Below are positions 46,004 to 64,000 of a stretch of 64,000 nt of DNA, piece by piece. Made by a program: the position numbers and the translations under genes. The notes under the pieces were generated by a model. The model was not told the origin of the DNA. It made no database searches and saw only the letters and a program-made list of their open reading frames with translations. Every line of letters starts with the position of its first letter. Position 1 is the first letter of the stretch. The stretch comes from Microbacterium esteraromaticum. Its GTDB lineage: Bacteria; Actinomycetota; Actinomycetes; Actinomycetales; Microbacteriaceae. The stretch is taken from NCBI RefSeq assembly GCF_014084045.1, contig NZ_CP043732.1, positions 124,001 through 188,000 on the forward strand, read 5' to 3'.

Positions 46004-46086
46004 AGTGCCGCGCGAACAGCACGCACCGTGCGCGCTGAGGCAGGACTGCACCCGATCCCGGTGATCAGAATGCACAATCCGGAGCG

Positions 46087-47862: not shown

Positions 47863-47936
47863 GGCTCCACGCTACGCCGGGGCTGGGTGCCGTTGGTCGT
47901 TGACCCGAGGCAGATCGAAGATCGCACAGTCGGCTG

Positions 47937-47965
47937 TTGCGCCGCCTGCGGTGCGCTCTTAGAAT
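47937..47965 (+). promoter_or_regulatory. promoter of the putative F420-0 transporter cassette
   Basis: TTGCGC (47937-47942) and TAGAAT (47960-47965) are spaced by exactly 17 bases. Transcription would start near 47972, leaving a leader of about 98 bases before the first gene. Confidence 0.6.
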
Positions 47966-47971
47966 CGGACC

Positions 47972-48069
47972 ATCGCCGGTTCGTCTAGCCGGCTTTGAGA
48001 GCCTGGATCTGGGTTCGACGCACGCGGCAATTCTGCCGCCCCCGCTGTCATCCACCATCCGGAGTCCTC
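47972..48069 (+). promoter_or_regulatory. structured 5' leader of the putative F420-0 transporter mRNA
   Basis: The leader can form at least two hairpins: GCCGG/CCGGC with a 9-base loop at about 47975-47993, and GCGGCA-ATTC-TGCCGC at about 48025-48040. It ends with GGAG at 48061-48064, five bases before the ATG. No cobalamin box, SAM or other riboswitch motif that I know is present. It may be a plain leader or an undescribed regulatory RNA. Confidence 0.35.
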
Positions 48070-49056
48070 ATGCGCGTTCGCCGCTCTCTCTTCTCTGCCT
48101 CTCTCGTCGTCCTTGCCGCCGCCGTCGCCGGATGCGCTTCGACGCCGGCCACTCCCGCGTCAGCAGACGCTGACGACGCTCGGAGCGGCTATCCCCTGAC
48201 GCTCGACAACTGCGGTTTCGACCTCTCCGTCGCCGGGCCCCCGCAGCGCATCGTCGCCATCAAGTCCTCGACCATCGAACTCCTGCTCTCCCTCGGCGTC
48301 GGCGATCGCATCGTCGCACAGGCGTTCTCGGATGGTCCGCTGCCTGACGCCCTCCGCGATGATGCGAAGGGCATCGAGACCCTGTCCGAGAAGGTTCCCT
48401 CGCAGGAGGCGACGCTCGCGCTCGAACCCGACATGGTGTTCGCCGGATGGGAATCCAACCTCACTGCCGAGGGAGCGGGCGACCGAGCCGCGCTGGCCGA
48501 ACTGGGAGTCGCCTCATACGTGTCACCGGCAGCGTGCACCGGAGACGGCTACGCGCCTGCACCGCTCACCTTCGACAGTGTCTTCGACTCGATCAGCGAG
48601 GCCGGTCGGATCTTCGACGCCGAGGAGGCCGCCGCCGATCTCGTCGAGGAGCAGCGCGATCAGCTCGCCGCCCTCACGCCTGACGATCGCTCATTGACGG
48701 CGGTGTGGTACTCCTCGGGCCGCGACACACCCTTCGTCGGGGCAGGCACAGGCGCACCCCAGATGATCATGTCGGCAGCAGGGCTCAAGAACATCTTCGG
48801 CGATGTCGGGGACAGCTGGACGTCGGCGTCCTGGGAGGCGGTGGCGGCCCAAGACCCGGATGTCATCGTGCTGGTGGATTCCGCGTGGAACACGGCGGAA
48901 TCCAAGATCGAGCTGCTGCGGAGCAACCCGCTCACGCAGCAGCTGACTGCGGTGCGCGATGCTCGATTCCTCGTCGTGGACTTCCCTGCCACGGAAGCCG
49001 GCGTGCGCAACGTGTCGGCCGTCGCGTCGCTCATCGACCAGCTCGCCTCGTCATGA
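48070..49056 (+). CDS. ABC transporter substrate-binding lipoprotein, putative F420-0 transporter family
   Basis: A 328-residue lipoprotein with lipobox AAAVAGC near residue 21 and a BtuF/FecB-type fold. YPLTLDNCGFDLSV, RIVAIKSSTIELLLSLGVGD, SEKVPSQEATLALEPDMVFAG, SYVSPAACTGDGY and IVLVDSAWNTAESKIELL closely match the family described as a putative F420-0 periplasmic component (TIGR03868, from memory). That function was proposed from co-occurrence with cofE and F420-dependent enzymes and is not, to my knowledge, proven. A corrinoid or siderophore ligand remains possible. ATG 48070 has GGAG five bases upstream. Confidence 0.85.
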   Translation: MRVRRSLFSASLVVLAAAVAGCASTPATPASADADDARSGYPLTLDNCGFDLSVAGPPQRIVAIKSSTIELLLSLGVGDRIVAQAFSDGPLPDALRDDAKGIETLSEKVPSQEATLALEPDMVFAGWESNLTAEGAGDRAALAELGVASYVSPAACTGDGYAPAPLTFDSVFDSISEAGRIFDAEEAAADLVEEQRDQLAALTPDDRSLTAVWYSSGRDTPFVGAGTGAPQMIMSAAGLKNIFGDVGDSWTSASWEAVAAQDPDVIVLVDSAWNTAESKIELLRSNPLTQQLTAVRDARFLVVDFPATEAGVRNVSAVASLIDQLASS

Positions 49057-50099
49057 CGGTCGCCACGGCGAAGCGACCGGTCTGGGGCGCGCAGGACGTC
49101 GCACGGGCGCCACTGACGGGCGCCCTTCTCCTCGCCGGCATCACGCTGTCCGTTGTGGCGGCCAGCACCATAGGGACAGCGGACATCGCCCCGCAGGACG
49201 TGGTGCGCAGCATCCTCACCCGCCTCGGAATCGGGTACAGCGCTCTGACTCCGCTTCAGGAAGGCATCATCTGGCAGCTGCGACTCCCCCGTATCGTGAC
49301 CGCTGCTGTCGTCGGAGCCGGTCTGGCCGTATGCGGAGTGGTGATGCAGGCGCTCACCAGGAACCCCCTGGCCGATCCGTACCTGCTCGGGCTGTCATCC
49401 GGTGCCTCTGTCGGAGCTGTTGCGGTGCTCGTGCTCGGCATCGGCGTCCACGTACCGGCGGCCGCCTTCGTCGGCGCCCTCGCAGCGCTCGGGGCGACCT
49501 TGGCGCTTGCTCGACTCGGCGGGAGACTGTCCCCGTCGACGACTGTGCTGGCGGGGCTCGCGGTATCGGCCGTCGGAAGCGCCCTCACCAGTCTGTTCAT
49601 CCTCCTCCATGCGACCGGCGACAGCTACCGCGAGATACTCAACTGGCTGCTGGGGTCGCTCGCGGGCTCGTCATGGAGCTCTGTCGGAATAGCGACGATC
49701 GCGCTCGTCATCGCGGGAGCGCCGCTGCTCGCGAGTGGGCGCGTGCTCGATGCCTTCGCACTCGGCGACTCCGGCGCGGCGGCGCTCGGCATACCCGTCG
49801 CGAGGGTTCGCACGGCCCTTCTCGTGGTCACGGCCGTGCTCACCGGTGCCCTGGTATCGGTGAGCGGGTCGATCGGGTTCGTCGGCCTCATCCTGCCCCA
49901 TGCAGTGCGGCTGGTCGTGGGCGGGATGCACCGGAGGCTGCTGCCTCTGTCAGCCCTCGCCGGCGCGCTCTTCCTGATGTGGGCCGACACCCTTGCGAGG
50001 ACGGTGCTCGATCCGCGGGAGATTCCGGTGGGAATCGTCACCGCGCTCATCGGCGGCCCCGTCTTCGCATATCTGCTCGCCCGGAGGCGGTCCGCATGA
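49053..50099 (+). CDS. ABC transporter permease, putative F420-0 transporter family
   Basis: A 348-residue FecCD/BtuC-type permease with about nine to ten helices. Marks are LRLPRIVTAAVVGAGLAVCG, LTRNPLADPYLLGLSSGASV, ILNWLLGSLAGSSW and GSIGFVGLILPHAVRLVVGG. The start overlaps the stop of the binding protein (ATGA) and its stop overlaps the ATPase start, so the three are one operon. It is the permease partner (TIGR03869-type, from memory) in the proposed F420-0 cassette. Confidence 0.88.
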   Translation: MTVATAKRPVWGAQDVARAPLTGALLLAGITLSVVAASTIGTADIAPQDVVRSILTRLGIGYSALTPLQEGIIWQLRLPRIVTAAVVGAGLAVCGVVMQALTRNPLADPYLLGLSSGASVGAVAVLVLGIGVHVPAAAFVGALAALGATLALARLGGRLSPSTTVLAGLAVSAVGSALTSLFILLHATGDSYREILNWLLGSLAGSSWSSVGIATIALVIAGAPLLASGRVLDAFALGDSGAAALGIPVARVRTALLVVTAVLTGALVSVSGSIGFVGLILPHAVRLVVGGMHRRLLPLSALAGALFLMWADTLARTVLDPREIPVGIVTALIGGPVFAYLLARRRSA

Positions 50100-50938
50100 G
50101 CACTCCCCCGGTCGACGTCCACGAGGCGCCGAGGAGGTCGACGGCCGGGACCGGCCTGACCGTGCGCGGAGCGCGCGCCCGGCGCGACGGCGCAGACGTG
50201 CTGGACGACGCAGATCTGCACGCGCCTTCCGGGCGGATCACCGCGCTCATCGGCCCCAACGGCGCGGGAAAGAGCACGCTCCTGCATGCGATGGCGGGCA
50301 CGATTCCCGCCACCTTCGTCGAACTCACCCATGAGGCGGCCGACCTTCTCGGCATGCCACGTCGATCTCGGGCACGGACGGTCGCCTTCGTCGAGCAGGA
50401 GCCGGCCACGCCCGACAGCATCCGCGTGCATGACCTCGTCACCCTCGGGCGGCTGCCGCATGACGGCATGTGGGCTGGTGCGGATCACATGCATGCGGCG
50501 GTACGACGCGGGTTGCACCTCGCGGAGGCGAAGGAGCTGGCCGGGCGCGCGTATGAGTCGCTGTCCGGAGGTGAGAAGCAACGGGCCCAGCTGGCGCGCG
50601 CGCTCGCTCAGGAGCCCCGGCTGCTGTTGCTGGATGAGCCGACGAACCATCTCGATATCCGCGCACAGCTCAGCACTCTCGCTCTCCTGCGGCGCCTCGC
50701 GAGCGAGGGGGTCACCGTGGTCGCGGCGCTGCACGACCTCAGCCTCGCCGCCGCGCATGCCGACCATGTGGTGGTGATGGCCGGAGGTCGTGTCGTCTGC
50801 GAAGGAACGCCTCAGGACGTGCTGACCCCCTCGCTCCTGCACGAGGTCTGGGGCGTGCACGCCGATGTGCTGGTGAACCCGACGACCGGCCAGGTGGTGC
50901 TTGCGACGTCCCTGGCGGGTGCGGCCGCCCCGCGCTGA
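50096..50938 (+). CDS. ABC transporter ATP-binding protein, putative F420-0 transporter family
   Basis: A 280-residue ATPase: Walker [18 protein letters not shown]-loop VAFVEQEPATPDS, signature SLSGGEKQRAQLARALAQEP, Walker B LLLLDEPTNHLDIRAQ and switch His in ALHDLSLAAAHAD. It has an N-terminal extension of ~20 residues. It ends 22 bases before the convergent M24-type gene. It should power the two preceding components. Confidence 0.9.
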   Translation: MSTPPVDVHEAPRRSTAGTGLTVRGARARRDGADVLDDADLHAPSGRITALIGPNGAGKSTLLHAMAGTIPATFVELTHEAADLLGMPRRSRARTVAFVEQEPATPDSIRVHDLVTLGRLPHDGMWAGADHMHAAVRRGLHLAEAKELAGRAYESLSGGEKQRAQLARALAQEPRLLLLDEPTNHLDIRAQLSTLALLRRLASEGVTVVAALHDLSLAAAHADHVVVMAGGRVVCEGTPQDVLTPSLLHEVWGVHADVLVNPTTGQVVLATSLAGAAAPR

Positions 50939-50960
50939 GTCATCTCGTGTGCGGCGCCGT

Positions 50961-52256
50961 TCAGAGATCGATCCAGGCCCACTCCTCCGTCCACGGCACG
51001 CGGGACATCGCGACGGCAGGCCCCGATTCCTGCACGACGAACGTGTCGGAGAAGTTCACGCTGAAACCGGCGGCGGGATCGTACAGCCCCGGCTCGACGG
51101 AGAAGCACATCCCGGGCTCCAGCACCGTGTCGTCACCGAGCGCGAGCCACGGCGGCTGATGGCGTTCCGGTCCCTGCCCATGCGCAGGGCGATGATAGAT
51201 CAGCTCCGCCATGCCCTCTGCGATCTGGAAGCGGTGGATGCGCTCAGCGACCTCACCACATGCGACTCCGGCGCGGAGCTCTTCCTGTTGCAGCAGGCAG
51301 GAGTCCCGCACGACCTGCCACACCCGCTCCATGTGCGGCGTGCGCTCCTGGAAGAGATAGGGCCGGTAGCACTCACCGCCATACCCACCGACCTGCAGCA
51401 CTCCGGACACCTGCAGGACGGTGTCAGCGGTGATCGCCGCGAAGCGGAACTGGTTGGGATGGGGATACCCCGTCACCGCTCCGGCGCGCACCCAGGCGAG
51501 GTCGATCACCACGCCGACGCCGCGATGGGGTCGGCCGTCGAGCTCAAGATCCGGGACGATCCGCTTGGTGGCGAAATCGATCATCGACATCCGCAGGTCG
51601 AAGTCCGTCATCGGGCCCTCTTCGAGCAATCGCTGCCGCGCGTAGGCATGCACCTCGTCGAAGTAGGTGTAGGTGCGCTTGATGAGCGCCAGTTCCTCCG
51701 GTGTCTTGTGCATGCGCATCTCCGTGCACACAGAAGACACGTCGTGGAGGGGCCCGCCCAGTATCCGTGCGGCCGCCATGGCACGCTCGCCGGCGGGCAT
51801 GCGGTCGATTCCGACCACGTGCCCCGCGACGCGCCCCGAATCCCTCATCCCACCGAGCGCCATCTCCCACAGATCCACCGCGGGACCCCTCGACGCATGG
51901 CCGAGATGCGGGAACTGCCCCGCCACGTGCGGATAATCGAAGTACTCCAGTCCGTCGCCGAACCACCACTCGTGCACCAGATCACGGTCGAGCGTCGGAT
52001 AGAACCAGTAGGGCGCCTCTTGGCCGGCGCTGAGGAGCGCGTAAAGGGGTCGTTCGGTCGTCGCCGCCCAGAGCCCCGTGAAGTACACGATGTTCCACGG
52101 ATCGGTCAGCAGCACCGAGTTGATCCCGCGCTCAGCGAGCGTCTCGAGCAGGTCCGCAGCCCGCTGCTCATTCCATGCCCTGGGCAACCTGGTGAACTCC
52201 GCAGGCTGATACGAGGATTCGGGCGTCAGCAGCCGGATGGACTCGGCGAGGTTCAC
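50961..52256 (-). CDS. M24-fold (creatinase/aminopeptidase P-like) hydrolase with degenerate metal site
   Basis: A 431-residue protein with the creatinase N-terminal domain (NSVLLTDPWNIVYFTGLWA) and a C-terminal pita-bread fold. By motif alignment the five usual metal ligands read Ser284, Glu295, His359, Glu388 and Ser403, so only the His in PAHGQGPERH and the Glu in FSVEPGLYD are kept. That resembles metal-free creatinase more than an Xaa-Pro peptidase. The GTG start overlaps the S9 peptidase stop (GTGA); it is the last gene of the peptide operon. No signal peptide, so cytosolic. It may cleave a C-N bond in an imported compound; the substrate is unknown. Confidence 0.8.
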   Translation of the reverse strand: MNLAESIRLLTPESSYQPAEFTRLPRAWNEQRAADLLETLAERGINSVLLTDPWNIVYFTGLWAATTERPLYALLSAGQEAPYWFYPTLDRDLVHEWWFGDGLEYFDYPHVAGQFPHLGHASRGPAVDLWEMALGGMRDSGRVAGHVVGIDRMPAGERAMAAARILGGPLHDVSSVCTEMRMHKTPEELALIKRTYTYFDEVHAYARQRLLEEGPMTDFDLRMSMIDFATKRIVPDLELDGRPHRGVGVVIDLAWVRAGAVTGYPHPNQFRFAAITADTVLQVSGVLQVGGYGGECYRPYLFQERTPHMERVWQVVRDSCLLQQEELRAGVACGEVAERIHRFQIAEGMAELIYHRPAHGQGPERHQPPWLALGDDTVLEPGMCFSVEPGLYDPAAGFSVNFSDTFVVQESGPAVAMSRVPWTEEWAWIDL

Positions 52257-54223
52257 AGCGCGTCTACCCCCAGATGCTCGGTGAAGTAACGGGCTTTCGC
52301 CATGCCCAGATAGATGCCGTGCTCGCCGGTGAAGTGATGAGGCTGCTCGTTGACGGGGAGGAAATCGAACGGCTTGCCTGCCCGAACGAGCGCCTCGGTG
52401 AATTGCAGTGATGCGGAGAACGGCACGTTGACATCGGATGTCCCGTGCACGATGAGCAATCGGCCGCGCAGTCGATCCACCATCGCGTGCAGGTCGAGGC
52501 GGTCATAGCCGTCGAGGTTTCCCTCGAGCGGCCCCATCACGCATTCGATGGGGCCGGGACCGTTGCCTTCGCGCATCTCGTAGACGCCGTTCACCGCGAC
52601 GCCGACATGGTAGACATCCGGCGCCTCGAGCAGCGCCCGCGCCGTGTAGTACCCGCCGTAGGATCTGCCGTACACGCCGACGCGGGAGAGATCGAGGTAC
52701 GGTCGCGTGGCGGCGAGACCCCGCAGCGCGGCGACATGGTCGGGGATCACGGTGTCCGCGAAGTTCCGGTACGCCCAGTCGTGGAACGGCTTCGAGCGCT
52801 CGGGGGTACCTCGTCCATCGACCATGACGACGGCGAATCCGAGCTGCGCGAGGGCATGAGATTGCACGGCGTTGGCATCGTCGAGCTCCGTCGGGACGAA
52901 GGCACTGTTCGGCCCGGCGTAGATGGACTCGATGACCGGATAGCTCCTCCCGGGGTCGAAGTCCGCCGGCAGGTAGAGGTGGCCGTGCAGCATGGTCTCG
53001 CCGTCGTCCGCGAGCACCGTGAACTCCTCCGGCGCAGTCCACGCGCTCAGCGCTCCTTCATCGCCCGCGGCGAGTCTGGCCACCGTCGTGCCGTCCGCAC
53101 GACGCAGATCCGATGCGGGGACGCGCGTCATGCTGGCGTGCGTGTCCACGAACACGGAGGCATCCGGTGAGAAGTGGGCGCGATGCGTCCCCGGCTCGGT
53201 GGTGAGCTGCTCGAAGCCACCGGATCCATCCAGGCGCGCACGGCACACATGCGTGTCGTACGGGCGCTCGCGATCCGAGTGGGCCTCGAAGTACACCCAG
53301 CCGCCGGGCTCATCGACGGCGGCGAGCCTGGTCACCGCGAAGTCACCCGAGGTGAGCTGGCCGATGGGAGCCCCCTCCATGTCGTGAAGGTGCAGATGGG
53401 CCCATTCGCCGCGTTCCGCGAGCCAGATGTGACCGGTTCCGCTGGGAAGCAGAGTGCACGACATCCCCTTCTCCCAGTACGAGACCCAGGTGCTCACCTC
53501 CTGCTCGAACACCGTACGCGTCGCGCCCGTCTCGGGGTCGACCGCCATCAGGGTGAACGGCTTCTTGTATCGATTCGTCTTGATGAAATACGCCTCGCGA
53601 CCATCCGGACTCCAGCCGAGCGGTCGCAGGTCCTGCTCGGGTTCAGGACCGCTGTCGACGGTGACGACTCGACGACTGATGCGGTGGACGATGTGCAGAG
53701 TCGTCGACTCCACGGAACCGCCGACCCGCCCGGCGGGGAAGAACTCCACCTCCTCGTTGGGCTTCAGCCAGTGGACCACCGGGAATCGCTCCATCTCGCG
53801 GGTGTCCACCCGCCTGGCGAGCAGGCGGAGACCGTCCGGCGACCACCGGGCATCCTTCACCTCCCATCGGTGATCAGGAGCACCGTCGTCGGTGAGCGGG
53901 CTCAGGCGGTCATCGATCGCCCACCGCAGCGCCAGGTCGTCTCCGACCTCTGTGGCGAAGTACCGTCCCCCCGGCTCGGGGGCCTCGAACACCGGAGGAC
54001 GCCCGATCTTGAAGGCAGAACGCAGACGTCGTCCGAGCGGCACGTCGCTGGGCGGCATCGTCCTCATCGGCTGTCGTTCGCCGGTCGCGCAGTCGACGAC
54101 CTGCAGGGCGCCGTCCGCATGGAATGCGACCCGTCCGCGGCTCCAGACCGGTGCGATCCGCCCGCCGGTCACCGTGCCGGCGAACTCGAGCAGGCTGCGG
54201 TAGCGCTCTTGGCGAGTGGTCAT
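52253..54223 (-). CDS. S9 family (prolyl oligopeptidase/DPP IV-like) peptidase
   Basis: A 656-residue two-domain serine peptidase. The N-terminal ~400 residues are beta-propeller-like (repeated DARWSPDG, LGWSPDG, AHFSPDAS segments). The C-terminal alpha/beta hydrolase has Ser521 in VYGRSYGGYY, Asp597 in IVHGTSDVNVPF and His629 or His630 in NEQPHHFTGEH. There is no signal peptide, so it acts inside the cell on short, often proline-containing peptides. GAGGAG precedes the ATG. It lies between the gamma-glutamyltransferase-like and M24-type genes. Confidence 0.9.
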   Translation of the reverse strand: MTTRQERYRSLLEFAGTVTGGRIAPVWSRGRVAFHADGALQVVDCATGERQPMRTMPPSDVPLGRRLRSAFKIGRPPVFEAPEPGGRYFATEVGDDLALRWAIDDRLSPLTDDGAPDHRWEVKDARWSPDGLRLLARRVDTREMERFPVVHWLKPNEEVEFFPAGRVGGSVESTTLHIVHRISRRVVTVDSGPEPEQDLRPLGWSPDGREAYFIKTNRYKKPFTLMAVDPETGATRTVFEQEVSTWVSYWEKGMSCTLLPSGTGHIWLAERGEWAHLHLHDMEGAPIGQLTSGDFAVTRLAAVDEPGGWVYFEAHSDRERPYDTHVCRARLDGSGGFEQLTTEPGTHRAHFSPDASVFVDTHASMTRVPASDLRRADGTTVARLAAGDEGALSAWTAPEEFTVLADDGETMLHGHLYLPADFDPGRSYPVIESIYAGPNSAFVPTELDDANAVQSHALAQLGFAVVMVDGRGTPERSKPFHDWAYRNFADTVIPDHVAALRGLAATRPYLDLSRVGVYGRSYGGYYTARALLEAPDVYHVGVAVNGVYEMREGNGPGPIECVMGPLEGNLDGYDRLDLHAMVDRLRGRLLIVHGTSDVNVPFSASLQFTEALVRAGKPFDFLPVNEQPHHFTGEHGIYLGMAKARYFTEHLGVDAL

Positions 54224-54275
54224 CTTTACTCCTCTGCTCTGGCACTTCGACGTGCCGTCTGACTATGCCGCCGGC

Positions 54276-55925
54276 TCAGAACCCGGCGGACTTCCCTTCC
54301 CGGCGCGACCCCGAGGCGCCGTTGAGGCGCCCGTCCGGGCCACGCCAGCACATCTCGAACGACCCCATGTGCCAATCGGACAGGCCGAGTGGACGCACCC
54401 GAACTCCCATGGCAGCCAGGCCGGCGACGAACTCCGGCGAGACCCGGCTCTCCATCGCCATCGTGTAGTGATCGTCCAAGGGCATCGTGAGCGGGCGCGC
54501 CTCGGCCTCATCCGGATCGAGCCCGAAGTCGAGGATCCCCGACAGGACCTGCGGCATGGTGGCCTCGACCTTCCCGGGCGTGCCGAGGGCGAGCCACGGC
54601 TCTCCTCCCCTCAACACCATCGTGTTCCCCATCACGGTGCGCACGTCACCGCCGCCGGTGTACCAGCCGCTGATGTTCTGAATGGGGTCGAGGCTGGTGT
54701 CGGTGAGCGATCCGGTCATGGGAACGCCGCCGACCACCTCACCGGGGATGCCGCTTCCCGAGAGGGTGGTCATGGCCTGCACCCAGTCACCCTGCGCGTC
54801 GACGATGCTGATCTCGCAGCTGTCCGTGCCCGGCGTCGTCGCCAGCTCCATGTGGCGCGGGTGTCGGGAAGTGAGCTCCAGATGGGCGGTGAGGTCGACA
54901 CGCGGGCGTGATCGCTCGATGATGCGGGCGACGTGTGCGTGATACTCCGGGTCGGCGATCGCCTCGCTGGGATCCTCGAAGCAGCGCGGATCATTGAGAT
55001 GGCCGAGATCGACGCGAACGCGACGCAGCGCATGCCCCAGGTAGTAGCAGGCCATCGGGTCCTCACTGTAGTGGCCGAGCTCCTGGACCCCGAGCTGCTC
55101 GAGCACACCGAGCACGAAGGCGAGTGAGACGGCCTGGATCTGGGGCGCGGCCAGAGAGGCGACCTCGTGACCGCGGTGACGGAAGATCCGCGCGGGCGAC
55201 CAGCGCGGTGCGTTCGCGTTCAGGTCCTCGAGCCTCACCGCCCACCCCATGGCATTGCCGCGACGGACGAACGCTCGTGCCCATCCGCCGCTGAGGAAGT
55301 GATCGGGGCCCTCGTCTGCGAGCGCCGACAGGGTCGCCGCAAGCTCCGGCTGACGCCACGTCTCTCCCACCTGCGGAAGGCGCCCATCGGGCGTGAAGTG
55401 CGACCGCCCCGATGGCGAGTGCTGGAAGTAGGCCAAGGTCGTGGCCATGACGTAGTGTTCGAACGATGTGACGCGGTGCCCTTCCTCCGCCAGCATCGCT
55501 GCGGGCGCGACCAACCGCGCCCACGGAAGCGTCGCCCCCTGTTCCCAGCATGTCTTCATGGCAGGCATGAACCCGGGGACGACCGCGTTCGCGCCGGGAG
55601 GATGGGCCGAGTATGTGCCGGCCACCACGGGAAGCGGGCGGAACGGGGCCAGTCCTGGCACCAGGCGTCCCGGGCTGTTGAGCTGGCGCACCTTCCCGGA
55701 ACGCCGCTCATAGTGGAGCACCGTCACGGTGCCCGCATGGTTGGTGAGCTCCTGCGACACCGTGGCCTGCACCATACAGGCGCCGATCAGGGCGTCGATG
55801 GCGTTGCCACCCTCCCGGAGGATGTCCAGCGCGGCATCGGTGACCAGCGGATGCTGGGTCGACACCATCGCGGAGTCGCCGTAGGCGACGGCCTTGCGGC
55901 CCACCGTTCCGGGAGGGTGGTACAT
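54276..55925 (-). CDS. gamma-glutamyltransferase-family Ntn hydrolase with Ser at the nucleophile position
   Basis: A 549-residue GGT-family protein. HPLVTDAALDILREGGNAIDA near the start and GDVRTVMGNTMVLRGGEPWLALGTPG-type segments near the end are typical. The autocleavage site reads PGTDSCEISIVDAQGD; aligned to TTHxSVVD of classical GGT, the catalytic Thr is replaced by Ser369, with Cys370 next to it. Classical GGT is exported; here there is no signal peptide, so it should act on imported gamma-glutamyl or other amide compounds in the cytosol. It starts 25 bases after the peptide-binding protein gene. The reaction is not certain: acylase or amidase activity is also possible. Confidence 0.85.
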   Translation of the reverse strand: MYHPPGTVGRKAVAYGDSAMVSTQHPLVTDAALDILREGGNAIDALIGACMVQATVSQELTNHAGTVTVLHYERRSGKVRQLNSPGRLVPGLAPFRPLPVVAGTYSAHPPGANAVVPGFMPAMKTCWEQGATLPWARLVAPAAMLAEEGHRVTSFEHYVMATTLAYFQHSPSGRSHFTPDGRLPQVGETWRQPELAATLSALADEGPDHFLSGGWARAFVRRGNAMGWAVRLEDLNANAPRWSPARIFRHRGHEVASLAAPQIQAVSLAFVLGVLEQLGVQELGHYSEDPMACYYLGHALRRVRVDLGHLNDPRCFEDPSEAIADPEYHAHVARIIERSRPRVDLTAHLELTSRHPRHMELATTPGTDSCEISIVDAQGDWVQAMTTLSGSGIPGEVVGGVPMTGSLTDTSLDPIQNISGWYTGGGDVRTVMGNTMVLRGGEPWLALGTPGKVEATMPQVLSGILDFGLDPDEAEARPLTMPLDDHYTMAMESRVSPEFVAGLAAMGVRVRPLGLSDWHMGSFEMCWRGPDGRLNGASGSRREGKSAGF

Positions 55926-55950
55926 GACGCTCTCTTCGCTCAGATCCGGG

Positions 55951-57567
55951 TCAGGACTTCGGAGGACCGAGCTTGCTCCAGTCGAGGATCACGACCTCGC
56001 CCGGGTGCAGGAACCCGTCGAGCCCGCTCAGATCGGCCCGGATGGCGTCCGTGTACTTCACCTGGACCAGCGTCGCCGTCGGCATGTCGTCGGCGATCAT
56101 GCGCTGCGCCTTCGTGTAGAACGGAGTGCGCTCGGACTGCTCATTGGCCGCGGCCGCGTCACGGAACACCGCGTCGAGTTCCTCGTTGCAGTACCCGGTC
56201 GCATTGCCGAAGACGGCATTCTGGTTGTTGTCACAGGTGTAGCGACGGTAGAGGCCGATTGCCGGGTCCGCACCAGACGAGATGTTGATCGTGTAGGTGT
56301 CGAAGTTGTGCTCGGCGAACACCTCCTTGCGGAACACCTCCGCGTCGTCGGCGATCACCTTCACATCGATGCCGATCGCCTTCCAGTTGTCTGCGATGAC
56401 TTCCGCGACCTTGTCGCCGCCGGGCTCAGCCGTCTCGTAGCGATGGGTCAGGGAGAAGCGGATGCCATCGGCACCGCGCGGGTACCCGGCGGCATCGAGA
56501 GCGGCTTCCGCCGCTTCGGGATCGTAGGGCAGCTCCTTCTCGTAGTCGACTTCGCCGGAGTTCGCCCAGTGCCCGTCGGGAAGCGGTGCCCGGCCCGGGG
56601 GGAAGTACCCTCCATAGACGCTCTTCGAGATGAACTCGCGGTTGATCGCCTGGAACAGCGCCTTGCGCACCTCCGGTTTGGCGAGGATCTCGTTGCGTGT
56701 GTTGAACGGGAACATCTTCATCGATGTCGACGCGCGCCCCACGTCCAAGCGGATGTTGTCGTCGTCCTCGAGCTGGAGAATCGATTCATACGTCACGTCA
56801 TAGGAGTTGATGTACTGAATGTCCCCCTTCTTCAGCGCAAGGGCTCGGGCAGACGGTTCGCCCATGACCGTGAACACCACGTTCTCGTACCCGGGCTTGT
56901 CGCCCCAGTAGTCCTCGTTGCGCACCAGGGTGATCCGGTTGTTCTCCCACGACTTGAACTTGAACGGCCCCGTTCCGATGGGTGCCCTGTTGGCAGGGTT
57001 CTCGAGCAGGTCGGTGCCTTCGTAGATGTGCTTCGGGATGACCGTGAACGACATCGAGTTCAGCATCGCGAGGAAGGCACCGGCCGGAGAATTGAGCACG
57101 ACGTCCACCGTGTGCTCGTCGACCTCCTTGGCCTCCTTGATCATGTCTTTGAGGGCTGCCGTCTGTGCGTTCACGCCGAGGCCCTCGGTGAGGCTGAACA
57201 CCACGTCTGCAGCGGTGAAGGGCTCGCCGTCGTGCCACTTCACACCCTTGCGCAGGTGGAAGCGGTGAGTCACCTCGTCAAGCAGCTCCCACGACTCGGC
57301 GAGTTGCGGCTCGAGTTCGCGGTCGCGGTTCACTGTGACGAGTGACTCCTCCATCGCCAGTCCGACGAGCCCGACCTGCACGTCGCCGAGGAACAGTCGC
57401 ATGAGGTGAGGCGGCTCTGCACTCATCCCCACCACGAACGTGCTGTCGCTCGCGCTGCCGCGGTTTCCCGAGCCGCTCGGCGAGCAGCCTGTCACCGCCA
57501 AGGCCGCGATCATCGCGGCGGCGCCGGCGAGAAGCAGCCTCTGCCTCAGCCGTCCTATCCGTTTCAT
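55951..57567 (-). CDS. oligopeptide-type ABC transporter substrate-binding lipoprotein (SBP family 5)
   Basis: A 538-residue lipoprotein: lipobox LAVTGC near residue 28, then the family 5 signature LAESWELLDEVTHRFHLRKGVKWHDGEPFTA-type region, GTGPFKFKSWENNRITLVRN and DYWGDKPGY. This family binds peptides, nickel or other solutes in a large cleft. It is encoded fifth in the operon, after the two ATPases, and should deliver ligand to the permeases encoded before it. An AAGGTGA ribosome site precedes the ATG. The 90 bases before it may hold a separate promoter, but I see none clearly. Confidence 0.9.
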   Translation of the reverse strand: MKRIGRLRQRLLLAGAAAMIAALAVTGCSPSGSGNRGSASDSTFVVGMSAEPPHLMRLFLGDVQVGLVGLAMEESLVTVNRDRELEPQLAESWELLDEVTHRFHLRKGVKWHDGEPFTAADVVFSLTEGLGVNAQTAALKDMIKEAKEVDEHTVDVVLNSPAGAFLAMLNSMSFTVIPKHIYEGTDLLENPANRAPIGTGPFKFKSWENNRITLVRNEDYWGDKPGYENVVFTVMGEPSARALALKKGDIQYINSYDVTYESILQLEDDDNIRLDVGRASTSMKMFPFNTRNEILAKPEVRKALFQAINREFISKSVYGGYFPPGRAPLPDGHWANSGEVDYEKELPYDPEAAEAALDAAGYPRGADGIRFSLTHRYETAEPGGDKVAEVIADNWKAIGIDVKVIADDAEVFRKEVFAEHNFDTYTINISSGADPAIGLYRRYTCDNNQNAVFGNATGYCNEELDAVFRDAAAANEQSERTPFYTKAQRMIADDMPTATLVQVKYTDAIRADLSGLDGFLHPGEVVILDWSKLGPPKS

Positions 57568-57657
57568 GTCGTTGTCACCTTTCTCTCCTTGTCATTCCTG
57601 CTGCACGGGCGCAGCCGTCCTCCAGGTCTCCTTCGATCCGGTGACGGATGTCCGTGA

Positions 57658-58518
57658 TCATCCTTCTTCGTGCTCCGGCTCGGAATTCTCGTCGACGAAC
57701 CACGCCGGCGGCTCCAGCTTCGGAGTGGACTTGAGAAGGGTCTGCGTGTACTCGTTCTGCGGGCTCAGGAAGATGTCGCCGACACTGCCCGCCTCGACGA
57801 TGTCGCCGCGGAACATGACGACGGCACGGTCTGCCAGTGCTCGAACGACCGAGAGGTCGTGCGTGATGAACAGGATCCCCATGCGCCGCGTGTGCTGCAG
57901 AGTCCGGATCAGTTCGATGATCTGCACCCGCACTGAGACGTCGAGCGCCGAGGTCGGTTCATCGGCGACGAGGTACTCAGGCTCGTAGAGCAGGGCGCGG
58001 GCGATCGCCACGCGCTGCTGCTGTCCGCCGCTGAGCTCGTGCGGATACCGTCGCAGGTAATCCGAGGCCGGCGAGATGCCGACTTCCTCCAGCGCCTCTG
58101 CTGCCCTCCTCTGCGACGCAGCCCGGCCGACGCCTGCCTGGCGAGCGGCGTAGCCGAGGATCGACCCGACGGTCCTCTTCGGGTTGAGGGACGCGGCCGG
58201 GCTCTGGAACACCATCTGGACGGTGCGACCGAAACCAGGGCGCAGCCTCCGACGACCCGACCGCGTGACACCGCCGATCCTGACCTCCCCGGAGTCCGGG
58301 CGCTGCAAGCCCACCATGACGCGCCCCAGCGTGCTCTTGCCGCTGCCGCTTTCGCCGACCAGTCCGACGATCTCGCCGCGTCCGATGCTGAGCGAGATGC
58401 CGTTCGCTGCGACGACACGGTTCCGTCCGCCACGCCCGGTCTTGAACTCCACTCGGACCTCATGCAGGTCGAGCCGGCTGGCCTCCGCTGCATCCTGCCG
58501 TGCCTCGTTCGTCGTCAT
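57658..58518 (-). CDS. oligopeptide-type ABC transporter ATP-binding protein (DppF-like)
   Basis: A 286-residue ATPase: Walker A LVGESGSGKSTLGRVMVGLQ, Q-loop MVFQSPAASLNPKRTVG, signature HELSGGQQQRVAIARALLYEP and Walker B LVADEPTSALD, with the C-terminal oligopeptide/dipeptide segment SPQNEYTQTLL. ATG 58518 overlaps the previous ATPase stop (ATGA). It pairs with the DppD-like protein. Confidence 0.9.
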   Translation of the reverse strand: MTTNEARQDAAEASRLDLHEVRVEFKTGRGGRNRVVAANGISLSIGRGEIVGLVGESGSGKSTLGRVMVGLQRPDSGEVRIGGVTRSGRRRLRPGFGRTVQMVFQSPAASLNPKRTVGSILGYAARQAGVGRAASQRRAAEALEEVGISPASDYLRRYPHELSGGQQQRVAIARALLYEPEYLVADEPTSALDVSVRVQIIELIRTLQHTRRMGILFITHDLSVVRALADRAVVMFRGDIVEAGSVGDIFLSPQNEYTQTLLKSTPKLEPPAWFVDENSEPEHEEG

Positions 58519-59336
58519 CGCTCTCCCTCCGCGGCGATCGGCGCGTCGTAGATGGCTCGCATGGCGCGCATGAGCGACCGCGTGTAGTCGTGCTGCGGTC
58601 GCCACAGGATGTCCTCGGTAGCGCCGTTCTCGACGAGATCGCCCTGGTACATCACGTACATCCGGCTGCAGACCTGCCCGATCGCGGCGAGATCGTGAGA
58701 GACGAGCAGCACAGCGACGTCCTCTTCGTGTGCGAGCCGCTTGAGCAGGCGAAGCACCTGGTCCTGGATCGTGACGTCGAGCGCCGTCGTCGGCTCGTCG
58801 GCGATGATGAGGCCCGGGTTCTTCGCCAGCGCGCATGCGATGATCACACGCTGCTTCATTCCGCCGCTGAGCTGGTGGGGGTACAGCCGGCTGAAGTCGC
58901 TCGTACCCGGCAACCCGACGGACTCCAGCAGCTCGAAGACGCTGCGGGTCCCGTCAACGATGGCCTCCGCTATCTGCTCGCCGACGCGCATCGTGGGGTT
59001 CAGATGCGCGTTCGGATCCTGGAAGACGTACGAGAGGTCGGTGCGCAGCGCCTGTCGGCGCGCGCCGGTGTCCGCACCGACCAGTTCCCTCGACATGAGC
59101 TTCACGCTGCCGCTCACCTCAGGGCGAAGCCCGGGTGCGAGCAGTCCTGCAACAGCCCGTGTGAGCATCGTCTTACCGGATCCGGACTCGCCGACCAGGC
59201 CGACCACCTCACCGCGCCGCAGCATCAACGACGCATCGCGCACGGTCTGCACGCGTCCGGCGCCGAAGGGGTTGATGCTGACATCCAGGGAGTCCACCGA
59301 GAGCACGACCTCGTGATGTTCGGCTGCCGCGTTCAC
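58515..59336 (-). CDS. oligopeptide-type ABC transporter ATP-binding protein (DppD-like)
   Basis: A 273-residue ATPase: Walker A LVGESGSGKTMLTRAVAGLL, Q-loop YVFQDPNAHLNPTMRVG, signature HQLSGGMKQRVIIACALAKNP and Walker B LIIADEPTTALD. The last part, RPQHDYTRSLMRAM, is the family C-terminal segment, though it lacks the Cys-rich Fe-S motif of classical DppD. GTG 59336 overlaps the permease stop. Confidence 0.9.
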   Translation of the reverse strand: MNAAAEHHEVVLSVDSLDVSINPFGAGRVQTVRDASLMLRRGEVVGLVGESGSGKTMLTRAVAGLLAPGLRPEVSGSVKLMSRELVGADTGARRQALRTDLSYVFQDPNAHLNPTMRVGEQIAEAIVDGTRSVFELLESVGLPGTSDFSRLYPHQLSGGMKQRVIIACALAKNPGLIIADEPTTALDVTIQDQVLRLLKRLAHEEDVAVLLVSHDLAAIGQVCSRMYVMYQGDLVENGATEDILWRPQHDYTRSLMRAMRAIYDAPIAAEGER

Positions 59337-60187
59337 AGCGCTCTCCTTCCCGCGCTACCACGATTTCCTGCGGCGTCGCCGATCACGTTGAAGCACAGCA
59401 CCATGATCGCGATGCATATGCCGGCGGGGATGCTGAACCACCACGCGTCCGCCAGGTACGGCTGCGCACGACGCAGCACGGCACCCCAGCTGGCCGTCGT
59501 CGGATCGCCGAGGCCGAGGAAGCTCAGTCCGGCTTCCAGGAGCATTCCGCGCCCCACGTCGAGCGCGGCCTGCACAGCTGCCGCCGGGATGACCAGGGGG
59601 AAGATCTCGAGAAGGATGATCCGCCACGACGGCGTTGCAGAGATGCGGGCGGCGTCGACGAACTCCGATGATCGCAGGGCGAGGAACTGCCCCCGCACGA
59701 TCCTCGCGGACTGCGGCCAGATCGCGAGGATCACAGCCACCGCCGTGAGGGTGGAGTCCCTGCCGATCACGGCGACAATCACCAGGGCGATGAGCATCGC
59801 CGGCATGATCTGGAACACCTCGGCGATGCGCATCAGGATGTTGTCCACGGCGCCGCCGACGTACCCCGCTATCCCGCCCACGAGCAGACCGACCACAAGG
59901 GACCCCAGCCCGGCGGCGATGCCGATGAAGAGCGAGACCCGAGCTCCGTAGACGATCTGCGAGAAGAGATCTTTGCCCACGTCGTCCGTGCCCAACCAGT
60001 GCGATGCCGATGGAGGCTCGAGGATGTCGTTCGAGATCGCGAACGGATCGATGGGGGCGATGACGGGTGCGAGCAGCGCAGCGAGCGCGAAGAGCCCGAC
60101 AGTGATGATGGCGCCGATGGTGAGCGCGTTCGGCCTGTTCCTGCGCACCTTGCGGGCTGCTCTCTGAACCACGATGGCCTCGGTCAT
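59333..60187 (-). CDS. oligopeptide-type ABC transporter permease (DppC-like)
   Basis: A 284-residue permease with about six hydrophobic helices. The N-terminal domain APIDPFAISNDILEPPSASHWLGTDDVGKDLFS and the loop DAARISATPSWRIILLEIFP are the DppC/OppC marks. It overlaps the DppB-like gene before it (60184-60187) and the DppD-like gene after it. Confidence 0.9.
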   Translation of the reverse strand: MTEAIVVQRAARKVRRNRPNALTIGAIITVGLFALAALLAPVIAPIDPFAISNDILEPPSASHWLGTDDVGKDLFSQIVYGARVSLFIGIAAGLGSLVVGLLVGGIAGYVGGAVDNILMRIAEVFQIMPAMLIALVIVAVIGRDSTLTAVAVILAIWPQSARIVRGQFLALRSSEFVDAARISATPSWRIILLEIFPLVIPAAAVQAALDVGRGMLLEAGLSFLGLGDPTTASWGAVLRRAQPYLADAWWFSIPAGICIAIMVLCFNVIGDAAGNRGSAGRRAL

Positions 60188-61158
60188 AGCGACGTCGCCT
60201 CCCTGACTTTCGGATCGATTACGCCGTAGACGATGTCGGTGATGACGTTGACGACGAGCGTCACGACGGCCACGACCACGACGACTCCGAGCACCACCGC
60301 GGTGTCACGACGAGTGACCGAGTCGTACAGCAGCGTGCCCATTCCCGGCCAGCCGAACACCTTCTCGACCAGGACGGAGCCGCCGATCATGGTGCCGAAG
60401 GTGTACCCGAAGACCGTCACGACGGGAAGCAGCGAGTTGCGCACGACGTGCCGGCGAACGATGCGGGAGCGCGTCATGCCCTTCGAGACCGCGGTCAGCA
60501 CGAAGCCGGAGTTCAGCACGCCTCCCGCGCTTGCGCGCGTCATCCGGATCATCAGGGCGGTCTCCGGCACAGCCATCGCCGCTGCGGGCAGCAGAAGATG
60601 CGAAAGCACATCCAGCGCCTGCTCGAATGGAGTGCCCTGGAACCCGATGGTCGTCATGCCCTGTGTGGGCAGCCAGCCGAGGCTGATGGCGAAGACCATC
60701 ACCCCGAGCAGAGCCAGCCAGAAGGTCGGAATGCTGAAGGCGACGAGCGCGAGGACGTTGATCGCCGTGTCGACGAAGCGCTTGCGCGTGGTCGCGGCCC
60801 ACAGGCCGAGCGGCAGGCCGATGGTCAGAGAGAGGATGCTCGCCGCGACGACGAGGATCACCGTGGCGCCGAGGTGGTCGACCACCAGCGGCAGCACCGC
60901 TTCGCGGTTCGCGAAGGAGAAGCCGAGATCGCCGCGTGCGACGCTCCAGAGGTAGTTCAGGTACTGCACGATGAACGGCTTGTCGATTCCCAGCTCAGCG
61001 CGACGTTGCGCCAGGTACTCCTCGGATGCCGGGTAGTCGCCGATGGTCGCCGTGACGATGTCGCCGGGTGCGAGCGATACCAGGATGAACGTGAGCGTCA
61101 CGACCCCCCAGAGCAGAGGGACGACGTACAGGATGCGGCGGAGGATCGCCAAGAGCAT
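60184..61158 (-). CDS. oligopeptide-type ABC transporter permease (DppB-like)
   Basis: A 324-residue permease, first gene of the minus-strand operon. The start MLLAILRRILYVVPLLWGVV and the region RRAELGIDKPFIVQYLNYLW are typical of DppB/OppB; the EAA loop reads TAVSKGMTRSRIVRRHVVRNSLLP. It has about six hydrophobic helices. It is divergent from the GntR gene across 314 bases. Confidence 0.9.
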   Translation of the reverse strand: MLLAILRRILYVVPLLWGVVTLTFILVSLAPGDIVTATIGDYPASEEYLAQRRAELGIDKPFIVQYLNYLWSVARGDLGFSFANREAVLPLVVDHLGATVILVVAASILSLTIGLPLGLWAATTRKRFVDTAINVLALVAFSIPTFWLALLGVMVFAISLGWLPTQGMTTIGFQGTPFEQALDVLSHLLLPAAAMAVPETALMIRMTRASAGGVLNSGFVLTAVSKGMTRSRIVRRHVVRNSLLPVVTVFGYTFGTMIGGSVLVEKVFGWPGMGTLLYDSVTRRDTAVVLGVVVVVAVVTLVVNVITDIVYGVIDPKVREATSL

Positions 61159-61472: not shown

Positions 61473-62183
61473 ATGTCACAGACGAATTCGCTCGGCGACG
61501 CGGCGGAGAGCGGCGCGGGGCTGCATGCCATCGGCCAGCGACCGTCCCGCACGCAAGAGGTCTTCGAGGCTCTGCAGCTCGCCATCGCCCGACGCGACCT
61601 GGCGCCGGGAAGCCTTCATTCCGCAGCGGAGCTCGCGGAGACCTTTGGTGTGTCCAGGACGCCGGTTCGAGAAGCGCTGATCGACCTCGCCTCACGGGGG
61701 ATCATCCGATTCGAGCGGAACCGGGGAGTTCGAATCCTGCGCTCGACGGCCGACGACCTGCGCGAGATCTTCGAGTTGCGCCATCTCCTCGAGGTGCATG
61801 CCGCTCGAGTGGCGGCGACCTCGATGAGCGAAGGAGACATCGCTCGGCTGCGCGCCGCTTTCGAGGCGCTCGAGAAGGCCGGCGATGAGAAGGACGACCG
61901 CAGCTACTGGGCAGCAGACCGCACCTTCCACCACATGATCCTGCATGCGGCGGGCAACGAGCGCCTGACGAACATCATCGGCATTCTCCGTGAGTCGATC
62001 CTGGTCCCCGGAGCGACCAGCGCCGGCAGAACCCGCTCGCTCACGCAGATCACCGATGAGCACCGAGTGATCCTCAGCGGCATCGCATCAGGCGACCCGG
62101 ATCAGGCCGCTGAGGCCATGCGCGTGCATCTGCAGAACACCGCCGAGAATCTCATCTCGCAGGAAGAGGACGCCGAGCGCTGA
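61473..62183 (+). CDS. GntR-family (FadR/FCD-type) transcriptional regulator
   Basis: A 236-residue regulator: winged helix SAAELAETFGVSRTPVREALIDLASRG (residues ~50-75), then a helical FCD ligand domain. The metal-binding Asp/His set is visible in AADRTFHHMIL, DEHRVIL and AMRVHLQN. AAGGAG precedes the ATG. It begins an operon with the pgl-like, FGD-like and cofE genes and is divergent from the peptide operon, so it probably couples the two. The ligand is likely an organic acid or a breakdown product of the imported compound. Confidence 0.92.
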   Translation: MSQTNSLGDAAESGAGLHAIGQRPSRTQEVFEALQLAIARRDLAPGSLHSAAELAETFGVSRTPVREALIDLASRGIIRFERNRGVRILRSTADDLREIFELRHLLEVHAARVAATSMSEGDIARLRAAFEALEKAGDEKDDRSYWAADRTFHHMILHAAGNERLTNIIGILRESILVPGATSAGRTRSLTQITDEHRVILSGIASGDPDQAAEAMRVHLQNTAENLISQEEDAER

Positions 62184-62205
62184 CGCCGGCCGAGCAGGAG
62201 GTAGC

Positions 62206-62925
62206 ATGCCCGAATACGTGGAACTGACCGATTCCGCCGCGGTCGCAGACGACGCCGCGATGCGCACAGTGACAGCGCTGCGGGACGCGATCGCGGAGCG
62301 AGGGAGCGCGACGTGGGTGCTGGCCGGCGGCTCCTCCCCCGCCGCCGCGTACCGGATCATCGCCGCCGAGCATTCGGACGCGCTCGACTGGGCGCGCGTG
62401 AGTGTTCTCATGGGCGACGAGCGAGTCGTCCCTCACGACCATGCCGATTCGAACTGGGGCCAGTTGAGCCCGCTCCTCACGGCGAGCCCTCGCGTCGGGG
62501 CGATCCACGGGATCGCTCCCGATACGTCACTCGATCCGCAGTCGTCCGCGACCGAGTACGGCCGACGCATCGAGGCGCAGCTCCAGCCGCTGCGATTCGA
62601 CGTCGTCTGGCTCGGGGTGGGTGAAGACGGCCATACCCTGTCACTGTTCCCCGGGCAGGAACCCGTCTGGAACTCGCCCTCACTGGTCACCGCCGTGACC
62701 GACTCCCCGAAGCCGCCAGCCGAGCGCATCACGCTGACCCTCGCAGCGCTCGACCATGCGCAAATGGTCCTCGTCTTCGCCACCGGCGCGGGCAAGCGCG
62801 ATGCACTGAGTCGCGCTCGAGCGGGAGAAGACCTGCCGATCGCGGTCGCCTCGGCACGCGCCGAGGCCGCCGGCGCGCGCGTCGCCTGGCTGTACGACGA
62901 TGATGCCCGTGACCGCCGGCGCTGA
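62206..62925 (+). CDS. pgl: 6-phosphogluconolactonase-like protein
   Basis: A 239-residue protein of the Pgl/NagB-like fold: VLAGGSSPAAAYRII, VLMGDERVVPHDHADSNWG and the diagnostic WLGVGEDGHTLSLFPGQEPV. Pgl hydrolyses the lactone made by glucose-6-phosphate dehydrogenases. AGGAGG lies 4-5 bases before the ATG. Its 3' end overlaps the FGD-like gene by 26 bases, which fits an enzyme pair of F420-dependent sugar oxidation followed by lactone opening. Confidence 0.88.
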   Translation: MPEYVELTDSAAVADDAAMRTVTALRDAIAERGSATWVLAGGSSPAAAYRIIAAEHSDALDWARVSVLMGDERVVPHDHADSNWGQLSPLLTASPRVGAIHGIAPDTSLDPQSSATEYGRRIEAQLQPLRFDVVWLGVGEDGHTLSLFPGQEPVWNSPSLVTAVTDSPKPPAERITLTLAALDHAQMVLVFATGAGKRDALSRARAGEDLPIAVASARAEAAGARVAWLYDDDARDRRR

Positions 62926-63913
62926 GATCACCATCGGCTTCGCGCCGATGCTCCAGCAGTTCCGTCCGGACGACGCGATCCGTCACTCCGTGGAAGCGGC
63001 TGAGTCGGGGTTCGGAGGGATCGTCCTGAGCGACCACTTCCAGCCGTGGCTGCCGCAGCAGGGCAACGCGTCGTACATGTGGAGCGTGATGGGAGCCCTC
63101 GGGCAGCAGGTCTCGGTTCCCCTGCTGGGCGTGACGACCCCCGGTTACCGCAGTCACCCTGCCGTGACCGCCCAAGCAGCCGCGACGATCGCCGTGCTGT
63201 ACCCCGGACGCTTTCAGCTTGGACTCGGATCGGGCCAGTCGCTGAACGAGCACATCGTCGGAGAGTACTGGCCGCCAGCGAACGAACGAGTCGAGCGACT
63301 GTTCGAGTCGGTCGAGCTCGTGCGAAAGCTGCTCGGCTCCACCAGACGAGATGTCAGACACGACGGCGAGCACTTCCGTCTCGAGCCGGCGCGACTCTGG
63401 ACACTGCCGGACGAGCCGCCTCCCGTCGTCGTGGCGACGTCTGGCCCGGTGGCCGCGCGAAGGGCCGGCCGCGTCGCCGATGGCATCATCACGGTGCAGA
63501 GTCCGCCCGACCGGCTGCAGTTGATGCTGGACCGTTTCGAGACCGGGGTCGCGGAGTCGGCGACCTCGGGCCCGAAGCGGCGGATGATCCAGCTCCACGT
63601 CTCCTGGGCCCACACCCGCGACCTCGCCCTCGAGCATGCGAGGGAGGAGTGGGCCCACGGCGGTCTGCGCTTCCCGACCGCGGACATCCGCTCTCCCTAC
63701 GATTTCGCCATGATGACCAAGCATGTGGAGGACGCGGATCTCGCCGACCGCATGCTGATCTCATCCGAGCCCGAAGAGCATCGCGAGCACATCCAGCGCT
63801 ACGTGGATCTCGGGTTCGATCATGTGTACGTCCACAACGTAGGCCGCAACCAATCGGAGTTCATCCAGATGTACGCCACCCATGTGCTTCCCGAGATCGG
63901 CCGTCGCCGATGA
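62900..63913 (+). CDS. LLM-class F420-dependent oxidoreductase, glucose-6-phosphate dehydrogenase-like
   Basis: A 337-residue TIM-barrel flavin/F420 enzyme close to FGD1. It keeps LSDHFQPW (His46, Trp50, equal to His40 and Trp44 of FGD1), the TxxxxRSHPAVTAQAAATIAVLYPGR-like region and the C-terminal Arg of ADRMLISSEPEEH. Three important differences are seen: FGD1 Glu109 is Gln113 here (GSGQSLNE), and the phosphate-binding Lys198 and Lys259 have no obvious equivalents. It probably uses F420, but the substrate may be a non-phosphorylated sugar or alcohol. ATG 62900 is used; ATG 62903 and GTG 62909 are alternatives. The stop overlaps the cofE start. Confidence 0.85.
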   Translation: MMPVTAGAEITIGFAPMLQQFRPDDAIRHSVEAAESGFGGIVLSDHFQPWLPQQGNASYMWSVMGALGQQVSVPLLGVTTPGYRSHPAVTAQAAATIAVLYPGRFQLGLGSGQSLNEHIVGEYWPPANERVERLFESVELVRKLLGSTRRDVRHDGEHFRLEPARLWTLPDEPPPVVVATSGPVAARRAGRVADGIITVQSPPDRLQLMLDRFETGVAESATSGPKRRMIQLHVSWAHTRDLALEHAREEWAHGGLRFPTADIRSPYDFAMMTKHVEDADLADRMLISSEPEEHREHIQRYVDLGFDHVYVHNVGRNQSEFIQMYATHVLPEIGRRR

Positions 63914-64000
63914 TCACCGTCTGGCCGCTGCAGGGCATCCCGGAAGTCCGAGCGGGAGACGACCTGGTCGAGCTGGTACTGGCGGCAGCCGGCGGCTCCC
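63910..64000 (+). CDS. cofE: coenzyme F420-0:L-glutamate ligase (CofE/FbiB), N-terminal part; 3' end outside window
   Basis: Only 30 residues are inside the window. MITVWPLQGIPEVRAGDDLV matches the conserved N terminus of CofE/FbiB, which adds the gamma-linked glutamate tail to F420-0. ATG 63910 overlaps the FGD-like stop (ATGA), which supports translation from here. It cannot be told whether the protein carries the C-terminal nitroreductase-like domain of FbiB. Confidence 0.75.
   Translation, partial: MITVWPLQGIPEVRAGDDLVELVLAAAGGS

Follow-up and report, generated by a model that had tools for sequence, protein, structure and literature searches.

Background

An ABC transporter for F420-0, the tail-less form of coenzyme F420, was reportedly proposed by Selengut and Haft in 2010, with the families TIGR03868, TIGR03869 and TIGR03873 as its components. 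A cassette of this type lies at positions 48070-50938 of the window, that is, the whole stretch of 64,000 nucleotides from Microbacterium esteraromaticum analysed here (G000:C1:124001-188000), and consists of genes for a substrate-binding lipoprotein (SBP), a permease and an ATPase. Like the proposed transporter, it occurs in an actinobacterium that has cofE and F420-dependent enzymes and in which no early pathway genes were found, and its SBP and permease score above the curated cut-offs; unlike it, its ATPase scores below, and an eight-gene operon parts the cassette from cofE. The proposal also leaves unexplained why 31/56 of the genomes carrying the wider family (hereafter carriers) have both cofC and cofD. 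Considering these distributions, we think that the cassette is probably a deazaflavin salvage importer that takes up FO in most carriers and F420-0 in trimmed lineages like that of the source genome (G000).

Other known systems resemble the locus in part. The vitamin B12 importer BtuFCD also serves the precursor cobinamide, which offers an analogy for one importer taking both FO and F420-0; the window cassette differs from it in scoring under the BtuC and BtuF equivalog cut-offs and in having F420 genes as genomic partners. Also among the closest systems is 4mlz, a periplasmic binding protein of Jonesia denitrificans whose title names no function. With the F420-dependent glucose-6-phosphate and sugar-6-phosphate dehydrogenases (FGD and FSD), the comparison concerns the product of 62900-63913, which scores above the TIGR03557 cut-off and shares 42% identity with the F420-dependent glucose-6-phosphate dehydrogenase of Thermomicrobium, but is not an FGD equivalog (TIGR03554, 182.3 bits against a cut-off of 420); the genuine FGD of G000 (617.7 bits) sits 13 kb past the window. 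An excerpt of one study states that Micrococcales, e.g. Microbacterium spp., harbour FGD and FSD (PMC6279831).

Results

The first-pass annotation of the window had read it as a locus for F420 salvage and use, with a three-gene ABC cassette of the proposed F420-0 importer type separated by a peptide-import and hydrolase operon of eight genes from a pgl-like gene, an FGD-like F420 oxidoreductase and the start of cofE. Profile searches recovered every one of these features (Table 1), and the SBP, the permease and the three F420-related genes beyond the operon passed the curated cut-offs of their families. It had also supposed that the cell imports tail-less F420 and adds the glutamates with CofE, and had pointed to the whole genome as the place to check. 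G000 is a single contig of 3,367,524 bases and 99.98% complete. It gave no match for cofH (TIGR03551 at 1e-20), cofG (TIGR03550 at 1e-10) or cofC (TIGR03552 at 0.001), nor for cofD with TIGR01819 at 1e-5 or with PF01933 at E 0.01, a model whose single negative is weak because it missed YvcK of Bacillus subtilis, which we take to be one of its targets. As positive controls, the models for cofD, cofC and cofG detected these genes in genomes of the same genus (FO synthase in G063, G077, G153 and G185; cofC and cofD in G090), and the cofG and cofH models, run separately, matched an identical set of 45/218 genomes. G000 keeps cofE, the cassette and FGD. These results favour salvage, and the case that G000 takes up an F420 precursor is a strong one as far as genome content goes; since neither cofC nor cofD was found, F420-0 would be the best guess for the cargo, which is as far as that part of the earlier claim can be taken.

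To place the cassette in context, we used a sample of 218 genomes of the order, each at least 95% complete. The SBP model TIGR03868 matched 72 genomes at 1e-40, and carriers were counted at 290 bits or more, within a gap in scores from 294.3 to 227.7. This gave 56/218 carriers, 53 of them above the curated cut-off; the three below it are G211, G191 and G056, the last of which is doubtful and was excluded from the SBP column and contrast analyses. A cofE match at 1e-20 was present in 56/56 carriers (55 above cut-off, G056 not) versus 81/162 non-carriers, and FO synthase (cofG/cofH) in one carrier of 56 (G178) versus 42/81 non-carriers with cofE, differences with p values of 4e-14 and 2e-11 in Fisher tests that ignore kinship. 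Counted by genus among genomes with cofD and cofE, carriers with and without FO synthase were spread over one and 13 genera, respectively, and non-carriers over 16 and 9 (p = 0.0007). Moreover, no more than 20 kb separated cofE from the SBP gene in 46/56 carriers, where about 0.6 would be expected for genomes of 4 Mb, so that the proximity of cassette and cofE is more than chance.

The carriers differ in what else they retain of the pathway. In 31/56, cofD was found above its cut-off, and the same 31 all had cofC (30 above cut-off when joined pieces are included; G081 reached 97 of 105 bits), while none of the remaining 25 had cofC, their top score being 38.8 bits. Thus, 30/56 carriers combine cofC, cofD and cofE without FO synthase, and 25/56, G000 included, have cofE alone, with no match for cofC or cofD. 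It is established that CofC and CofD convert FO to F420-0, and therefore the two genes would have no evident use in a cell that imported F420-0 itself. The 30 carriers with cofC, cofD and cofE but no FO synthase must get FO from outside, whereas the 25 with cofE alone would need F420-0. The earlier picture of a family marked by the absence of all genes before cofE, and carrying F420-0, does not agree with those 30 genomes: that the family in general carries F420-0 appears doubtful, and FO would fit most carriers with cofC and cofD better.

Gene order points the same way in many of these genomes. In 21/31 carriers with cofD, this gene lay within about 21 kb of the cassette (G090 was placed by the contig that holds its permease and ATPase genes), and in at least nine of the 21 it came straight after the ATPase gene, in the same orientation and with match ends 18-62 bases apart. 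The arrangement appears to be the same in G120, G144 and G157, where the ATPase match is fragmentary. G018 and G141 have cofD ahead of the SBP gene, at distances of 333 and 173 bases, respectively, and G090 and G155 have it on the other strand. A further set, comprising 50 named carriers (80 loci, the best of 440 relatives), picked by similarity to the window SBP and sharing at least five members with the first set, had cofD in 44/50 and cofG in 6/50, and none of the 50 had cofG without cofD. The six with cofG are Microbacterium sp. 2FI, three Promicromonospora, one Cellulomonas and Myceligenerans pegani; the six without cofD are Microbacterium bovistercoris, Microbacterium sp. MAH-37, a Salinibacterium metagenome-assembled genome (MAG), Sediminihabitans luteus, a Micrococcales MAG and Pseudactinotalea suaedae.

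The ten genomes of the genus Microbacterium in the order sample form a series. G063, G077, G153 and G185 have the full F420 pathway and no cassette (G063 has merely an SBP relative of 204 bits); G090 has the cassette with cofC, cofD and cofE and is without FO synthase; G000 has the cassette and cofE; and G034, G103, G164 and G195 are without cassette, cofE, cofD and FO synthase. Outside the sample, Microbacterium sp. 2FI (L160) has the cassette together with cofG and cofD, and thus the exchange of FO synthase for the importer is not strict. Other named Microbacterium (L122, L126, L133 and L135) show the cassette followed by cofD-cofC-FGD-cofE-LLM within about 7 kb, and in M. bovistercoris and MAH-37 the order is cassette-FGD-cofE; in the window, the peptide operon fills the interval that holds cofD, cofC and FGD in several other members of the genus. 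A tree of SBP and permease together placed G000 beside G090 (SH-aLRT 95), within a set supported at 96 whose other members have linked cofC/cofD. The SBP alone grouped the window with nine other Microbacterium rows (support 81/79), and the permease alone joined it to G155 (support 88). Because the combined tree is clear and the single-gene trees are less so, we consider a loss of cofC/cofD within the genus likely, although the trees do not prove it.

Discussion

On the basis of these data, we propose the following scheme; gene content, linkage and the lack of matches for the early pathway are observed, and from them we infer which way transport runs, which ligand is carried and which reactions follow. 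Outside the cell, the lipoprotein would capture a deazaflavin, which the FecCD-type permease and ATPase would carry inward, so that the importer would stand in for FO synthase across the family. Carriers with cofC/cofD would take in FO and complete F420 by means of CofC, CofD and CofE; those without both, such as G000, would take in F420-0, to which CofE would add the glutamate tail. The genes still encoded would then decide which imported deazaflavin the cell can use. In G000, F420 would be reduced by two F420-dependent sugar-phosphate dehydrogenases, one of them in an operon with pgl, and Pgl would remove the lactone product. A broader version, to which we give an even chance, is that FO is the usual cargo of the family and that many carriers, species of Agromyces and Microbacterium included, are FO auxotrophs sharing FO as a vitamin, with F420-0 import in genomes like G000 as a further step of trimming. 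Excerpts of two studies are compatible with external FO as a source: FO was reported in the culture supernatant of one producer bacterium (PMC11104420), and yeast equipped with CofC, CofD and FbiB produced F420 when FO was supplied in the medium (PMC10949242).

Several points weigh against this proposal. To our knowledge, no ligand has been measured for any member of the family, and it is an assumption that a single transporter can handle both FO and the charged F420-0. The ATPase of the window cassette scores under the cut-off of its own family (Table 1), G056 is a weak family member (294 bits, with cofE 2.3 Mb away), and the association tests are only partly corrected for kinship. Carriers with FO synthase do exist, namely G178 and the 6/50 named carriers that include Microbacterium sp. 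2FI, and in 10/31 carriers with cofD the cofC-cofD pair is elsewhere in the genome. Finally, FO at 72 mg/L entered yeast with no importer named in the part of that report considered here (PMC10949242), and 12/54 non-carriers with cofD and cofE are also without cofG/cofH. These last two observations imply that the cassette may matter only when FO is low, or may not be the FO route.

In the ten carriers just mentioned, cofC and cofD form a pair remote from the cassette, and the stretches of six were fetched (L078, L079, L080, L094, L095 and L096). Their cofD scored 169-195 bits against one linked cofD, versus 326-744 bits for the linked ones, and on account of this gap the remote cofD may have been acquired separately.

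A sharper form of our proposal, which we put forward tentatively and hold to be less probable than the general one, assigns two specificities to the family: lineages with cofC/cofD would have FO binders, and F420-0 binders would have arisen on repeated occasions where cofC/cofD were lost. In an alignment of 100 SBPs (29 from cofE-only genomes and 71 others), the five columns that best separate the groups (278, 282, 271, 162 and 157) fall in two segments after the predicted strands 148-151 and 265-270, with 157, 162 and 271 in loops and 278 and 282 in the helix that follows the second loop; judged by topology, both segments are predicted to face the cleft of the fold. Position 278 is His or Lys in 22/29 cofE-only SBPs and Ser, Asp, Ala or Gln in 65/71 others, and over seven independent contrasts the mean numbers with and against the trait were 3.9:0.2 at 271, 3.5:0 at 278 and 5.4:0.1 at 282. 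However, columns and letters were chosen after looking, the median p of the sign test stayed above 0.05 for all seven columns tested (lowest 0.0625, at column 282), and column 106 showed no association (1.5:0.7). The window SBP itself has a mixed pattern, with Ser271 but Ser278 and Leu282. We therefore present these columns as a lead.

We regard it as unlikely that the cassette carries F420-0 only, with FO diffusing into the carriers that have cofC/cofD and the cassette acting there as a second, parallel source of cofactor. The name that NCBIfam gives to this putative transporter, with the model type 'hypoth_equivalog', the 25/56 carriers with cofE and no cofC or cofD match, the yeast that made F420 from FO in the medium (in the excerpt of PMC10949242) and the 12 non-carriers that have cofD and cofE and lack FO synthase would all suit it. 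Nevertheless, it would make cofC and cofD dispensable wherever the cassette occurs, yet 31/56 carriers keep the two together, and in many of them the importer operon continues directly into cofD. Import of F420 with its glutamate tail, CofE merely lengthening the tail, would fit the cofE-only genomes as well as F420-0 does, but it too leaves the retention of cofC and cofD in 31/56 without explanation, and we find it more improbable still. It is very improbable that the cassette is a common importer of heme, siderophores or corrinoids adjoining F420 genes by chance: although BtuF, HmuT, CeuE and FecCD have the same fold and permease family, the universal presence of cofE in carriers and its nearness in 46/56 speak against it, curated models scored far under their cut-offs (BtuF 35.7/234, BtuC 260.4/461, EitA 128.2/640 and IsdE 19.5/298.65 bits), and no Rfam family reached its gathering score in 44000-64000, hence no cobalamin riboswitch, and on this ground a corrinoid importer under such control was rejected.

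It is usual to treat F420 as either made or lacking in a given cell. If FO or F420-0 is imported as we propose, deazaflavins would circulate as vitamins in communities, surveys that recognise F420 users by possession of the full pathway would overlook salvagers, and production strains could be supplied with F420 or its precursor through a named importer. Among the matches listed by our literature search, which left out most subscription journals, there was no paper on an F420-0 transporter, FO uptake or F420 salvage, nor one arguing for FO over F420-0 as the cargo of this family; in the accessible part of a 2021 FEMS review, the words 'uptake', 'salvage' and 'auxotroph' have no occurrence.

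The 12 non-carriers in which cofD and cofE occur without FO synthase (G001, G004, G014, G029, G087, G113, G130, G138, G150, G192, G202 and G212; stretches L081-L092) are candidates for further FO auxotrophs. A transporter was sought beside their cofD-cofE, where 14 conserved clusters were found, some of them overlapping frames; the four representatives scanned were a WhiB regulator, a glycosyltransferase, a DUF5719 protein and one without match, with no transporter among those four. Separately, in L098 (G177:C3, about 88956-90391), G079 and G092, cofE stands beside a short, divergent cofD-like gene (79-83 bits, TIGR01819) and FO synthase gave no match, and G052 and G066 have a short cofD-like gene (67 and 79 bits) and no cofE match.

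Features of the locus and neighbouring genes

Table 1. Coordinates of the cassette and neighbouring features in the window, with the profile evidence for each.
Feature	Position	Strand	Evidence
Substrate-binding lipoprotein (SBP)	48070..49056	+	TIGR03868, 447.5 bits (cut-off 392.4), passed
FecCD/BtuC-type permease	49053..50099	+	TIGR03869, 460.2 bits (cut-off 437.35), passed
ATPase	50096..50938	+	best family of 191 TIGR03873, 309 bits (cut-off 372.4), failed
Eight-gene peptide-import/hydrolase operon	50961..61158	-	profile matches
GntR/FCD regulator	61473..62183	+	PF07729 and PF00392; divergent from the peptide operon, just upstream of pgl
pgl (6-phosphogluconolactonase), first gene of the pgl-LLM-cofE unit	62206..62925	+	TIGR01198, 175.6 bits (cut-off 124.45)
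F420-dependent sugar-6-phosphate/glucose-6-phosphate dehydrogenase, LLM family	62900..63913	+	TIGR03557, 293.3 bits (cut-off 210.4)
cofE (F420-0:gamma-glutamyl ligase), start	63910..64000, on to G000:C1:188680	+	TIGR01916, 225.7 bits (cut-off 180.65)

The three cassette genes are joined by ATGA overlaps, one between the SBP and permease genes and one between the permease and ATPase genes. The SBP begins with a signal sequence ending in VAGC, and its Cys22 is almost invariant in an alignment of 24 sequences. Of the seven places in the genome that match TIGR03869, this permease is the only one above the cut-off. With the ATPase under its own cut-off, membership in the family rests on the SBP, the permease and the gene order.

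Beyond the operon, pgl overlaps the following dehydrogenase gene by 26 bases, and the ATG of cofE, at 63910, overlaps the stop of the latter; the TIGR01916 match spans L008:1910-2677. G000 has three proteins above the TIGR03557 cut-off, the third at G000:C1:557319-558260 (232 bits). Such a protein is also present in two of the four genomes of the genus that are without cofE (G103, 242 bits; G164, 234 bits), and TIGR03557 alone is thus no proof of F420 use. The PF04075 reductase, tried as another sign of such use, gave no match in G000. Membership of the GntR/FCD regulator in the F420 unit is unproven.

The eight-gene operon comprises M24 and S9 peptidases, a gamma-glutamyltransferase homologue, an SBP_bac_5 binding protein, two ATPases and two permeases. 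It is not part of the salvage system, since several other Microbacterium hold cofD, cofC and FGD in the interval beside the cassette. A link of the operon to F420 was considered and rejected. Among the other stretches that were fetched, none showed relatives of its M24 and S9 genes; G071 and G211 did have OppA-type relatives, and Agromyces had distant gamma-glutamyltransferases. Its gamma-glutamyltransferase homologue was likewise rejected as a trimmer of the glutamate tail of F420: on inspection by eye, it lacks a signal sequence, and what we take to be the catalytic motif is altered.

In 20 loci of the Agromyces type (e.g. L137:15435-16889, L121, L139, L170, L058 and L118; L118 and L137 are one genome), another gamma-glutamyltransferase gene lies beyond the cassette, mostly adjoining FGD. 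An apparent signal sequence was found in 5/5 starts inspected and a TTH motif in the six inspected. This enzyme could shorten the gamma-glutamyl tail of F420 outside the cell, ahead of its import, or could be a neighbour fixed in the genus.

On the other side of the cassette, and divergent from it, 46087-47862 encodes a 591-residue DUF255 (thioredoxin-like DsbH) protein. Two more FecCD-type permease genes lie near each other at 21508-22344 and 22668-23516 (G000:C1:145508-147516), and probably belong to another importer of the FecCD class.

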